From a virus: 21,037 bases of DNA. Positions 6,689 through 10,084 of the stretch are shown here, one piece after another. The notes below the pieces were generated by a model, which was not told where the DNA came from, did not search any database, and saw only the letters and a list, made by a program, of their open reading frames with translations. The stretch is from positions 1 through 21,037 of IMG/VR virus record IMGVR_UViG_3300010883_016936; one strand, written 5' to 3'. A program made the translations under genes and the position numbers. Position 1 is the stretch's first letter; every line of letters begins with the position of its first letter.

Positions 6689-7315
6689 ATGGCTGATTAT
6701 ACTATTTTTCAGAGCACAACCACAACTTTTGCGGTAGTTACTGGTGGCACGGTTTTAACTGCTGGCGCTGTAACAGGAACTGTTGTGGCTGCTGGTACTG
6801 CTAAAAATCTTGGCTCTAATAGAGACACTCTAGATAATTCTGCTTTAGGCATTGCCGAACCAGGGTTGTATGGAGCTACAGTTGCTAGTGGAGCCCGTGT
6901 GGGAACAACTGTGATTGACAATAGCATTACTACTGATAGCAATGACATTGGCAATCAAGAAGCTGAAAATTACCACATGAAAAGAGTGGCTTCTAATGTA
7001 GGCAAATCCGCAAGTACATCTTTAGCTTCTGGGGCTTCTGAAAAGGGTTCTAAGAGAGATAAGATTCATAATGTTCTTAGTGCCAGAATGGTGCAAGTGG
7101 CTACGGCATTGCGTGAGGGTAAATGGGATGTTTACTCTGGCTCGTTTAGTGCCGGTCCAACTGGCGTGAATGATTTCACAGATATGCATCCTGACAATGC
7201 TATTGCTAATGATGGTAATAATTTCGGATTAAAAGGTGGTTTGACATATTCAACCGCTGGTAGTTCCGTTATTACTACAGGTACTTATGAAGACAAGGGT
7301 GGTTCTACATCCTAA
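6689..7315 (+). CDS. Probable structural or secreted protein, Ala/Gly/Ser/Thr-rich (208 aa)
   Basis: The product has no cysteine and is dominated by Ala, Gly, Ser, Thr, Val and Asn, as in virion surface, fibre or decoration proteins. A central charged helix-like part (GASEKGSKRDKIHNVLSARM through ALREGKWDVYS) separates two beta-rich segments; the C terminus (GLKGGLTYSTAGSSVITTG) is again beta-rich. The first 35 residues are hydrophobic and small but lack an n-region of positive charge, so they are not a typical signal peptide. Codon choice differs visibly from the AT-rich neighbours (more GCT, GGT, GGC), as in highly expressed genes. It forms its own transcription unit, with putative promoter, palindrome, good SD and strong terminator. 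The exact function is unknown. Confidence 0.6.
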   Translation: MADYTIFQSTTTTFAVVTGGTVLTAGAVTGTVVAAGTAKNLGSNRDTLDNSALGIAEPGLYGATVASGARVGTTVIDNSITTDSNDIGNQEAENYHMKRVASNVGKSASTSLASGASEKGSKRDKIHNVLSARMVQVATALREGKWDVYSGSFSAGPTGVNDFTDMHPDNAIANDGNNFGLKGGLTYSTAGSSVITTGTYEDKGGSTS

Positions 7316-7323
7316 TTAAATAA

Positions 7324-7355
7324 AGTCCGCCGACGAAAGTTGGCGGGCTTATTTT
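7324..7355 (+). terminator. Rho-independent terminator with GAAA loop
   Basis: AGTCCGCCGAC 7324-7334 pairs with GTTGGCGGGCT 7339-7349 around a GAAA tetraloop, with only G-T wobbles as imperfections, followed by TATTTTA. It lies 8 bases after the stop of the 208-aa protein gene and isolates that gene from the REC operon. Confidence 0.85.
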
Positions 7356-7390: not shown

Positions 7391-7813
7391 ATGTATTGCC
7401 TAATTATAGATGACAACGAAATAGACATTAAGAAGATATGTAGATATGCTAAGTGCTCACAATCTGATTCTGCCCAAACAATAGCAGAATCTTTGCAATA
7501 TTTAGACAAAGCAGAAAAATATGATGTTGTTTTTATAGACCATAAATTACCAGACGGAAACAGTTTTACTCTAATAGAACAAATACGAAAGCGCAACAAA
7601 ATAGTACCTATAATAGTAGTAACCAGATGGGCAAATTATAAATTAGCTGTAGAGACATTAAAAGCAGGAGCATCTGGATTCTTATCTAAAGAAGGTTTAA
7701 ATGAAACAATGGTACAAGAAGCTATAAGTGATGCCATTGGAGAAGCCGAAAAAATAGAAACTGTATTAATTCAATTAGACCAAATCGAGCGCAAACTAGA
7801 TGGGCATAAATGA
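7391..7813 (+). CDS. Stand-alone REC (response regulator receiver) domain protein
   Basis: The 140-aa protein is a complete receiver domain: acidic pocket D7-D8 (LIIDDNE), phospho-acceptor D50 (VVFIDHKLPDG), T78 (IIVVTRW) and K100 (GFLSKEG), in the expected order and spacing. Receiver domains take a phosphoryl group from a histidine kinase at the acceptor Asp and change conformation. No DNA-binding or enzymatic output domain follows; only a helical tail of about 30 residues remains (EAEKIETVLIQLDQIERKL), which could be a dimer or partner-binding helix. No kinase is seen in the window, so a host kinase or phosphate donor would be needed. The end overlaps the coiled-coil membrane protein gene by 14 nt, which points to that protein as partner. 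Confidence 0.85.
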   Translation: MYCLIIDDNEIDIKKICRYAKCSQSDSAQTIAESLQYLDKAEKYDVVFIDHKLPDGNSFTLIEQIRKRNKIVPIIVVTRWANYKLAVETLKAGASGFLSKEGLNETMVQEAISDAIGEAEKIETVLIQLDQIERKLDGHK

Positions 7814-8216
7814 CGAAGTATTACGACGTATTCTCTCTACATTAGATATATTAACCGAGAGATTTGCCAGACTAGATGAACGTAGTAAACATATTAGTGA
7901 AAAGCACGATAAACTTACTTCACAAATTATTAAACTAGATACGGAAATTATCGACCAAAAAGATTGTTTAAATAAATATGCTAATAAATTAGAACAATTA
8001 GTAGAAGAAACAAAGGATTTTGACAAGTTTAAAGAAGATTTATCAAATCTTTATACGGAAACAAAACAGGTTAAATATACTTTGGGAAAAATACTCGATA
8101 TAGGACTAAAAATAGCAATGGCATTATTAATAACATACCTTACCTTAAAATTAAATTTGTCCGATAAACATGAAAATAATAAGCCTACCATACAAAACAG
8201 CCAGGGCGCTGATTAA
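7800..8216 (+). CDS. Coiled-coil protein with C-terminal membrane segment (138 aa)
   Basis: Residues about 10-95 have heptad-like spacing of Leu/Ile with many Lys, Glu and Asp (for example EVLRRILSTLDILTERFARL, then KLTSQIIKLDTEIIDQKD), a strong coiled-coil pattern. One hydrophobic segment follows at about 98-117 (ILDIGLKIAMALLITYLTLK), then a polar tail of about 20 residues. The protein would be a tail-anchored or membrane-spanning stalk. It starts inside the REC gene and its end overlaps the hydrolase gene by 47 nt, so the three are translationally linked. The layout would suit a membrane partner of the REC protein or a tail/lysis accessory protein. Family not recognised. Confidence 0.65.
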   Translation: MGINDEVLRRILSTLDILTERFARLDERSKHISEKHDKLTSQIIKLDTEIIDQKDCLNKYANKLEQLVEETKDFDKFKEDLSNLYTETKQVKYTLGKILDIGLKIAMALLITYLTLKLNLSDKHENNKPTIQNSQGAD

Positions 8217-8844
8217 AGAAGGTGATATATTACTTTTTAGAGGTCAAGGAAGAATTTCAAAACTCATTGGAGCAATGACAGAGACTAACTATAGTCATGT
8301 CGGAGTAGCGTCTTGGGTAAATGGGCACCATGATGATGATGCTTTGCTAGAATGTGTAGAATTTAAAGAAGGAAGCGCATTAATGAGCTTAATCAACTCT
8401 AATGCTGGTGGCGGGGGCAGGTCAATAAATTTAGAACAAGCGGTTAAAAAACAACCAGACTGTATTGATGTTTACAGACCGGCGACTCGTTTTACAACCG
8501 CAGAATTTAATCCGGAAACCAAAGAAGTAGAATGGATTACTAGGGAATTTGATGGCAAATGTGTTACCAGAGTAATGCGTAAAATGACAGGTCTTCCTTA
8601 TGGCTGGAAACGAATTTGGTGGATGATAAAACATAAATTGGTTCTATTTCGCTTAAGAAATAGGGCTTCTTTAATGAACGACGAATTACAAGACGTTATT
8701 TATCCAGTGTGTAGCACATCTTTATCTTATGCTTTTACAAAATGTTTGTTTGATTTAGTTAACAATCGAGCTGATGCTTGGATGGAACCAGGAGACATAG
8801 CGAAAAGTGCCCGTTTAAATTATTTGTTTACATTAGGAGTATAA
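8170..8844 (+). CDS. Permuted papain-fold (YiiX / NlpC-P60-like) hydrolase
   Basis: The 224-aa protein opens with the hallmark of circularly permuted NlpC/P60 (YiiX/YebB-like) enzymes: LIKEGDILLFRGQGRISKLI (14-33), then NYSHVGVASW with His43, an acidic partner (ALLECVEF, E61), and the nucleophile-type Cys181 in YPVCSTSLSYAF. In this group the His comes before the Cys, the reverse of ordinary NlpC/P60. Members cut amide bonds in peptidoglycan peptides, or act as acyltransferases or amidases on lipids. There is no signal peptide. A role in cell-wall opening or lysis is plausible from the flanking membrane proteins but not shown. No clear SD precedes the ATG, which fits coupling to the gene it overlaps. 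Confidence 0.65.
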   Translation: MKIISLPYKTARALIKEGDILLFRGQGRISKLIGAMTETNYSHVGVASWVNGHHDDDALLECVEFKEGSALMSLINSNAGGGGRSINLEQAVKKQPDCIDVYRPATRFTTAEFNPETKEVEWITREFDGKCVTRVMRKMTGLPYGWKRIWWMIKHKLVLFRLRNRASLMNDELQDVIYPVCSTSLSYAFTKCLFDLVNNRADAWMEPGDIAKSARLNYLFTLGV

Positions 8845-8845
8845 T

Positions 8846-9235
8846 ATGCAACTAACGCGCTATCACGCTAATAGAATTGGCGCAAAGGTTAAAAATCTAC
8901 ATACTTCTGATAAACAAGAAGTATTTTTTGACCCCGCTACTATTACTTTAATTACTACTATTGTTTTACAAGTTATTAAACTGATTAAACATTGTACTAA
9001 AGATTCTGAAACACCAGAAAAAGAGGCTTTGGAAGTAGCTCACCGCCCGTCTTATTCTAATCAAAGACAATTAAACAGAATCTTGCGTAAAAAACTAGGG
9101 TGGCGAAAATATTGGAAAGAAGGAACCAAATATAAAGAAGCTATTTTAGATGAAGGTAAAATATTAACTAAAGAAGACATATTGGGTCTTTATACAGACG
9201 AAGAGCAACAAGCTTTATATATAGAAAATAGTTAG
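8846..9235 (+). CDS. Small protein with one hydrophobic segment (129 aa)
   Basis: The ATG follows the upstream stop by one base, with AGGAG at 8835-8839 as SD. A hydrophobic stretch of about 18 residues (ATITLITTIVLQVIKLIK, near 31-48) could span the membrane. The rest is polar and basic, with a predicted helical C-terminal half (LNRILRKKLGWRKYWKEG, then acidic). It follows the hydrolase directly, as holin-like or accessory proteins often do in lysis clusters, but there is only one candidate helix and no recognisable family. Confidence 0.55.
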   Translation: MQLTRYHANRIGAKVKNLHTSDKQEVFFDPATITLITTIVLQVIKLIKHCTKDSETPEKEALEVAHRPSYSNQRQLNRILRKKLGWRKYWKEGTKYKEAILDEGKILTKEDILGLYTDEEQQALYIENS

Positions 9236-9242
9236 GATAAAA

Positions 9243-9824
9243 ATGGAAAAAGAGGATAAGATTTTATCTTTTGATGCCTCTCAGCTTTTAGAAAAATGGA
9301 AAAAGAAACAAGAAAAAGTTAAAAGAGAAGATTGGATAGATTATTTTATTTTAAAAGCCTATCGAATATCTACCCGTAGTTTAGACCCCCAGACGCAATG
9401 TGGGGCTATAATTATAACTCCAGAAAAAGATATTGTGGCTACAGGCTACAATAGTTTCGTTCGTGATATAGATGATTCTGTCTTGCCTAATCTGCGACCA
9501 GAAAAATATGACTGGATGCTACACGCAGAACACAATGCCATTCTTTCCTGTGCTAGACGAGGGGTTTCTTGCAATAAATGCTACGCGTATATTACTGGAC
9601 CTCCGTGTATTTACTGTACACAATATATGTATCAAGTGGGCATAAAAAAGATATTTTATACAGAATTAAACCCTGCAAATATGTGCCAAGGCAAAGAAGC
9701 TAAAATAAAGTGGGAAATTTTAACATATCTTTTAAATAAAAAAATAGAATTTTGTCCCATTTTTCCAGGAGAAAAATTAAAGCGAAAAATTTTAGAAATT
9801 AAAAGTTGTAGGACACTTGATTAG
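9243..9824 (+). CDS. Deoxycytidylate (dCMP) deaminase
   Basis: This enzyme converts dCMP to dUMP, the substrate of thymidylate synthase. The zinc site is intact in the 193-residue protein: HAEHNAI (H94, proton-shuttling E96) and PPCIYCTQYM (C122, C125). The MDP-type layout is clear: an N-terminal helix (DWIDYFILKAYRIST) and TQCGAIIITPEKDIVATGYN as the first beta hairpin of the cytidine deaminase fold. Length suits phage dCMP deaminases, which are often regulated by dCTP/dTTP. The start follows a short gap, with AGGATAAAA before the ATG. It is the last gene before the non-coding block at 9825-10108. Confidence 0.92.
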   Translation: MEKEDKILSFDASQLLEKWKKKQEKVKREDWIDYFILKAYRISTRSLDPQTQCGAIIITPEKDIVATGYNSFVRDIDDSVLPNLRPEKYDWMLHAEHNAILSCARRGVSCNKCYAYITGPPCIYCTQYMYQVGIKKIFYTELNPANMCQGKEAKIKWEILTYLLNKKIEFCPIFPGEKLKRKILEIKSCRTLD

Positions 9825-9839: not shown

Positions 9840-10084
9840 GACCGGAGTTAAAAGAGCGTCTTGACATATAATGTCTAACAGCTAAGCGGCACGTTTTCGG
9901 TCTTTACATCTTAGTCAACTGAAGCACAAAATAAGTACACTCATAAAGCAACAAGTAGTTAACAGTACTTCACATACTGTATCTACAGTTGAAAAAAACT
10001 TTATACAAGCGCGTGCGAAGTATAACTTTTCATCGTGTCGCTTTTTAATAATCACAAGGCCCATCTTCGGATGGGCCTTTTATT
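9840..10084 (+). ncRNA. Structured non-coding RNA candidate (about 245 nt) with own promoter and terminator
   Basis: This gap between dCMP deaminase and the 93-aa ORF has no credible frame but many complementary segments: AGACCGGA 9839-9846 with 9896-9903 (8 bp, one G-T); inside it GTTA/TAAC and GACAT/ATGTC (9863-9867/9871-9875); TCAACTG/CAGTTGA 9915-9921/9986-9992 (7 bp) enclosing AAGTAC/GTACTT 9933-9938/9965-9970 or the alternative ACAGTA/TACTGT 9962-9967/9975-9980; TGAAAA/TTTTCA 9990-9995/10027-10032 with TTATAC/GTATAA 10001-10006/10020-10025; and a UUCG terminator. An alternative stem AAGCG/CGCTT (10007-10011/10039-10043) precedes T5. I find no B12 box (it lies upstream of a B12-dependent RNR), no 6S or tmRNA features. 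It could be a trans-acting sRNA or a long leader. Confidence 0.55.
10056..10084 (+). terminator. Strong Rho-independent terminator with UUCG loop
   Basis: AAGGCCCATC 10056-10065 pairs perfectly with GATGGGCCTT 10070-10079 around the extra-stable C(UUCG)G tetraloop and is followed by TTTATT. It ends the candidate RNA at 9840 before the replication operon begins. Confidence 0.92.

Follow-up and report, generated by a model that had tools for sequence, protein, structure and literature searches.

Gene organization at the locus

The stretch of DNA analyzed here, referred to as the window, is a virus record of 21,037 bases from an uncultivated tailed phage. Its recognizable genes encode a glycosyltransferase, a sigma-70 region 4 protein, a ClpP-like protease, a DeoC-like aldolase, dCMP deaminase, RNR, PhoH, a UvsX-like recombinase, a DnaB-like helicase and a primase. 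Two tRNA-Gln genes with anticodons CTG and TTG lie close together at positions 408-487 and 701-772.

Four genes, designated REC, CC, HYD and SMP, lie between g6689, which encodes a putative virion protein, and the dCMP deaminase gene (Table 1). Their positions and tight spacing in our open reading frame calls (overlaps of 14 nt and 47 nt, and a one-base gap) agree with those given in an initial annotation of this DNA. Because the group is flanked on both sides by predicted terminators, REC, CC, HYD, SMP and dCMP deaminase can form a single transcription unit. A hairpin terminator is present 3' of g6689 in nearly all relatives of the window.

Table 1 Coordinates of the REC-CC-HYD-SMP module and its borders in the window.
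Feature	Position	Strand	Remarks
g6689, putative virion protein	6689..7315	+	clade-conserved; homologues at the same position in relatives; fixed left border of the module
Intrinsic terminator 3' of g6689, ahead of REC	7323..7350	+	12-pair stem, T-rich tail; strong
REC, stand-alone receiver domain	7391..7813	+	140 aa; PF00072 match
CC, charged coiled-coil-like protein with one C-terminal membrane helix	7800..8216	+	138 aa; 14-nt overlap with REC
HYD, permuted NlpC/P60 (papain-like) enzyme	8170..8844	+	224 aa; 47-nt overlap with CC
SMP, small one-helix protein	8846..9235	+	129 aa; one base past the HYD stop; upstream of dCMP deaminase
dCMP deaminase	9243..9824	+	PF00383 and phrog_174; fixed right border of the module
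Intrinsic terminator 3' of dCMP deaminase	10056..10079	+	terminator prediction

The receiver and the adjacent membrane protein

REC matches the Pfam Response_reg model (PF00072) over residues 4-109 with 64.1 bits (E 1.6e-17; curated cut-off 30.2), and Pfam identifies no output domain. The acidic pair (D7 and D8), the phospho-aspartate (D50), the threonine (T78) and the lysine (K100) are all kept. With all five residues in place and the whole domain matched, the earlier description of a complete receiver lacking an output domain is confirmed, and as judged from its sequence REC is a complete, conventional stand-alone receiver that would be phosphorylated at D50. The base composition of the gene is phage-like (GC 0.326 and GC3 0.213, compared with a GC of 0.356 for the window). 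It starts 75 bases after g6689, just beyond the conserved terminator, and thereby lies between this terminator and the CC-HYD pair. A single-protein scan of viral contigs returned no close REC relatives, and a search of GTDB genomes gave only three distant matches, none with a matching neighbor. No kinase was recognized within the 21-kb fragment.

None of 84 related viral and phage records contains a receiver above the Pfam cut-off. The scan of these records gave one sub-threshold match (17.7 bits), located elsewhere in the genome of the nearest relative, G001; it was not counted, being below the cut-off and resembling the divergent receiver-like (cREC) type of jumbo phages. This weak receiver-like protein, possibly of the cREC type, is encoded at L085 1426-1776 (minus strand), near a DUF4326-like ORF. 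Jumbo-phage cREC resembles REC in being a phage-encoded receiver-like domain, and has been tied to NAD/ADP-ribose enzymes (PMC7824862). In contrast, REC is a conventional receiver, and no NAD/ADP-ribose processing genes were found among the window ORFs scanned, its neighbors included.

CC is predicted to have one helix near its C-terminus, at about residues 94-117. The initial annotation had described a coiled-coil protein with a single C-terminal membrane helix; the helix stands, while the coiled-coil character is plausible and statistically modest (z = 2.0, p = 0.065 in a simple heptad test). XhlA-type holin-associated proteins have a layout of a coil followed by a C-terminal helix, and the likeness of CC to them is in overall layout only, with no match to the corresponding Pfam model at E 0.1. 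No recognized holin is present at the window locus.

A permuted papain-fold hydrolase encoded by viral contigs

A scan with the single HYD protein returned no close relatives in viral contigs, but alignment queries did recover relatives. Together these form a family of permuted papain-like enzymes that is encoded in 35 viral contigs and has a recurrent membrane partner. HYD was not found in the GTDB genomes searched. All 30 distinct homologues share H43, E64, Y144 and C181. The residue order His-Glu-Tyr-Cys, with the cysteine near the C-terminus, is that of permuted NlpC/P60 enzymes; in BcPPNE the catalytic residues are His49, Glu64, Tyr127 and Cys154 (PMC3142127). When the HYD family profile was compared with solved sequences, exactly one match was obtained, to BcPPNE (3kw0, E 2e-9), and the profile alignment places the histidine and glutamate of HYD in register with H49 and E64.

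The AF2 model of HYD (pLDDT 82.7) matches BcPPNE (Foldseek 4.5e-7; Z 17.9 over 167 residues, rmsd 2.9), YiiX (2if6; Z 14.2) and TseH (Z 7.7), and also permuted papain-like enzymes from phages and giant viruses. A three-sequence AF2 model was discarded, its quality being too poor. The His43/Cys181 hydrolase recognized earlier is thus well founded, given the invariance of both residues and the match of its fold to permuted NlpC/P60 enzymes. No Pfam family is matched by HYD, Peptidase_C92 (PF05708) included, and C92 was not found in 50 related records. Since the C92 model is not reached, HYD is filed under the wider permuted superfamily rather than under Pfam C92. It is like the YaeF/YiiX-like permuted NlpC/P60 enzymes (BcPPNE, YiiX, and the T6SS effectors TseH and Tox-Act1) in catalytic order and fold. 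Unlike them, it is phage-encoded, has no evident signal peptide and no Pfam match, has a longer Tyr-Cys spacing and is paired with a membrane protein.

Cell-wall opening, one of the functions first suggested for the module, is doubtful, since the class to which HYD belongs is documented with lipid rather than peptidoglycan substrates (PMC3142127, PMC12994826). Fatty acid provides evidence of a lipid-type substrate for YiiX (PMC3142127), and phospholipase activity has been described for Tox-Act1 and TseH (PMC12994826). Because the permuted superfamily is associated with such substrates, attack on acyl bonds is the likelier activity, and by analogy the likely targets of HYD are such bonds in membrane lipids or in lipoproteins. 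At E 0.1, HYD matches no known peptidoglycan hydrolase family in Pfam. T4-type lysozyme, M15_3, Amidase_2 and SLT domains were not found in 20 related records, which gave only a sub-threshold M23 match; the missing families are weak evidence, because many of these records are fragments and other endolysin families exist. In L088 (8756), L093 (8600), L094 (8660) and L111 (8805), HYD is followed by a trypsin-like protease with a predicted N-terminal signal-like helix.

Variation of the module among related viruses

For comparison, we retrieved 80 viral loci that encode a related RNR. The slot from g6689 to dCMP deaminase is conserved in this clade, and its gene content varies. About ten genes fill it in most of the clade; they include SMP, the gene for a 308-aa peptidase, genes for small membrane proteins and one for an 81-aa protein with weak likeness to transglycosylase-associated proteins. 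In the part of the clade to which the window belongs, the slot holds HYD together with a small membrane protein. No slot contains both HYD (31 intervals) and the papain-like C1-type peptidase (15 intervals). This peptidase, of about 308 aa, has no Pfam or PDB sequence match and carries the NSWG motif in all 35 distinct copies. QTTGDCVSH accompanies NSWG in the protein at L063 7188-8108 and in the 34 other distinct proteins, all from slots without HYD.

In 32 of 34 relatives a small membrane protein lies directly upstream of HYD, usually overlapping it or separated from it by a few bases. The helix of this protein is near the N-terminus in nearly all relatives, whereas that of CC is near the C-terminus. 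REC-CC occupies the place of the usual membrane protein, as REC begins just past the g6689 terminator. Thus, in the window, REC-CC replaces the N-terminally anchored membrane protein of the clade, exactly past the conserved terminator. In three other loci, L114 (7469-8002), L119 and L120, the one-helix protein before HYD has a PAS-like region (PAS_9, E 0.001, below cut-off), and these weak matches may represent a second kind of signaling domain at the slot.

SMP has one predicted helix and 57 homologues at the same position, most of them in genomes without HYD; it is a wide-clade gene with nothing specific to REC or HYD. The four genes had been proposed to act as a set, for which co-occurrence in other viral contigs was the suggested check. 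Such a conserved cassette is not observed. The genes are instead found separately, with HYD present in 35 viral contigs without REC, SMP distributed across the clade without HYD, and REC and CC confined to the window within the clade. HYD evidently works without REC, since REC is absent from every HYD relative.

Receivers beside small membrane proteins in unrelated phages

Stand-alone receivers adjoining a small single-helix membrane protein were nevertheless found in phages unrelated to the window: in the Alteromonas phages R9Y1-3, R8W, H4/4, PB15, XX1924 and PT11-V19, and in L127. Several of these pairs sit within recognizable holin/endolysin cassettes. L127, an IMG/VR phage contig with an SU10-type capsid protein (E 2.6e-7), was found by a viral scan with a REC alignment. 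Its PAS histidine kinase gene is followed by two receiver genes and then by the gene for a coil protein whose helix is C-terminal. The coil gene overlaps that of the second receiver by 14 nt, so that order, overlap and topology are those of REC-CC in the window. The cultured Alteromonas phages were reached by searching phage records with the first receiver of L127.

R9Y2 has its receiver gene between those of a membrane coil protein and a GH108 endolysin (E 1.8e-23), with a 4-nt overlap at each junction. R8W and H4/4 (Autographiviridae) have a class II holin gene ahead of the membrane coil and receiver genes, and the receiver gene is followed by that of another membrane protein, again with 4-nt overlaps; in H4/4 this last protein has two helices by annotation. 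In the PB15 cassette the coil protein carries its helix at the C-terminus; the receiver comes next, followed by an M15 endolysin (E 2.7e-13) and then by a 3TM holin (E 3e-16). XX1924 has the same coil protein and receiver. Of 50,697 phage records, 6 encode the R8W coil and 2 the PB15 coil, and in every one of them the receiver is adjacent; the R8W pair occurs in both podophages and siphophages. In PT11-V19, the receiver next to the membrane coil protein has lost the phospho-aspartate, and phosphorylation may therefore not be needed there.

Several other candidates were set aside. L126 is probably a bacterial signaling island, and Stenotrophomonas phage Bhz63 encodes a full PhoP-type regulator rather than a stand-alone receiver. 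Many REC matches in records labeled as phage were left uncounted, since they look like bacterial contamination (AtoC, BaeR, CreB and CheA annotations).

The sample was drawn through the receiver and not through its neighbor, and for each module a small one-helix protein would be expected as one of the two neighbors with a probability of about 0.31. For four or five independent modules, the observed adjacency would arise by chance with a probability of roughly 0.003-0.01, which is modest and supportive but not overwhelming. What recurs is an arrangement rather than one family, because CC has no BLAST similarity to the PB15 coil and no homologue among the fetched related loci. The suggestion made from the window alone, that the receiver's partner is the membrane stalk encoded next to it, is strengthened by this recurrence in unrelated phages, and REC may bind CC.

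Possible roles of the module

We tentatively favor the reading that the window carries an envelope-attack or lysis module in which host signaling, acting through REC and CC, sets the time of envelope breach. The old core of this module would be a small single-helix membrane protein together with the permuted papain-fold HYD. REC could be phosphorylated at D50 by a host histidine kinase or by a small phosphodonor, and its phosphorylation state may alter docking on the cytoplasmic coil of CC. Altered docking would open or block a membrane step, either CC oligomerization or the access of HYD to its substrate, and the envelope would then be breached at a time set by the signaling state of the host.

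A somewhat unlikely alternative gives HYD and its membrane partner a part in virion assembly or entry, namely the processing of lipid-modified or membrane-associated proteins, with REC-CC being an accessory insert in the operon. The module always comes after g6689, a putative virion gene, and in most cases after a ClpP-like head-maturation protease as well. Moreover, permuted papain-like enzymes are encoded by eukaryotic large DNA viruses, and viral enzymes of this type have been suggested to act in particle maturation (PMC3142127). However, in nearly all relatives the conserved terminator stands between g6689 and the module, the genes downstream belong to nucleotide metabolism and are not structural, and genomes without HYD fill the slot with small membrane proteins and the papain-like peptidase. 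It is also conceivable, although quite improbable, that the adjacency is incidental, REC-CC having been acquired recently from a host or another phage and sharing only a promoter with its neighbors. The phage-like composition of REC and the recurrence of receivers beside single-helix proteins argue against this, even though REC and CC are found only in the window among its relatives and the gene content of the slot is fluid.

Another unlikely explanation, in which REC is unrelated to HYD, is that it acts as a phosphoryl sink or decoy rewiring a host two-component system (for example for phosphate or stress), with CC anchoring it near the host kinase. Stand-alone receivers can indeed act as phosphate sinks. 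Phage proteins that target host two-component systems exist (PMC10714779), and the R8W gene was read by its authors as a PhoB-type DNA-binding regulator, an auxiliary gene for low phosphate (PMC8228385). Yet the product of this gene (MW043865, L131, 4001-4462) is a 153-aa receiver with no DNA-binding domain, encoded in a holin cassette, and the receiver reading would correct its label. Placement in lysis cassettes, with 4-nt overlaps leading to the endolysin in R9Y2 and PB15, is likewise not expected of a general decoy.

Known controls of phage lysis timing are holins, antiholins and superinfection signals. Extending the lysis-timing reading beyond the window, it is possible, if open to considerable doubt, that these loci represent an undescribed recurring lysis-control unit, assembled repeatedly, in which a phosphoreceiver acts on an adjacent membrane coil and host two-component input sets lysis timing. 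The lytic effectors of such a unit might, with equal reservation, include GH108 and M15 enzymes, class II or 3TM holins, and the permuted papain-fold, lipid-type hydrolase of the window. If true, a phage-encoded receiver in a lysis cassette would constitute a new input, by which burst timing would respond to nutrient status or stress in the host. This idea is directly testable, because the pair is present in cultured phages that have laboratory hosts (R9Y on Alteromonas macleodii ATCC 27126, R8W, H4/4 and PB15).

In the literature searched, no description of receivers in phage lysis cassettes was found. The Alteromonas phage cassettes (R9Y1-3, R8W, H4/4, PB15 and XX1924) are like the window in having a stand-alone receiver, a small single-helix protein and a lytic gene nearby, and differ from it in their sequence-unrelated coil, their gene order and their classical endolysins or holins in place of HYD. 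They are not presented as a lysis unit in PMC8228385 and PMC9430817, and neither a receiver nor a response regulator turned up in a term search of the latter, the R9Y paper. The lysis timing regulators gp62 and gp63 of phage N4 (PMC12642591) share with the proposed window module a small membrane-bound lysis protein whose cytoplasmic part is regulated. The "Receiver domain" of gp63, unlike REC, is a named region only and not a phosphoreceiver fold (PMC12642591).
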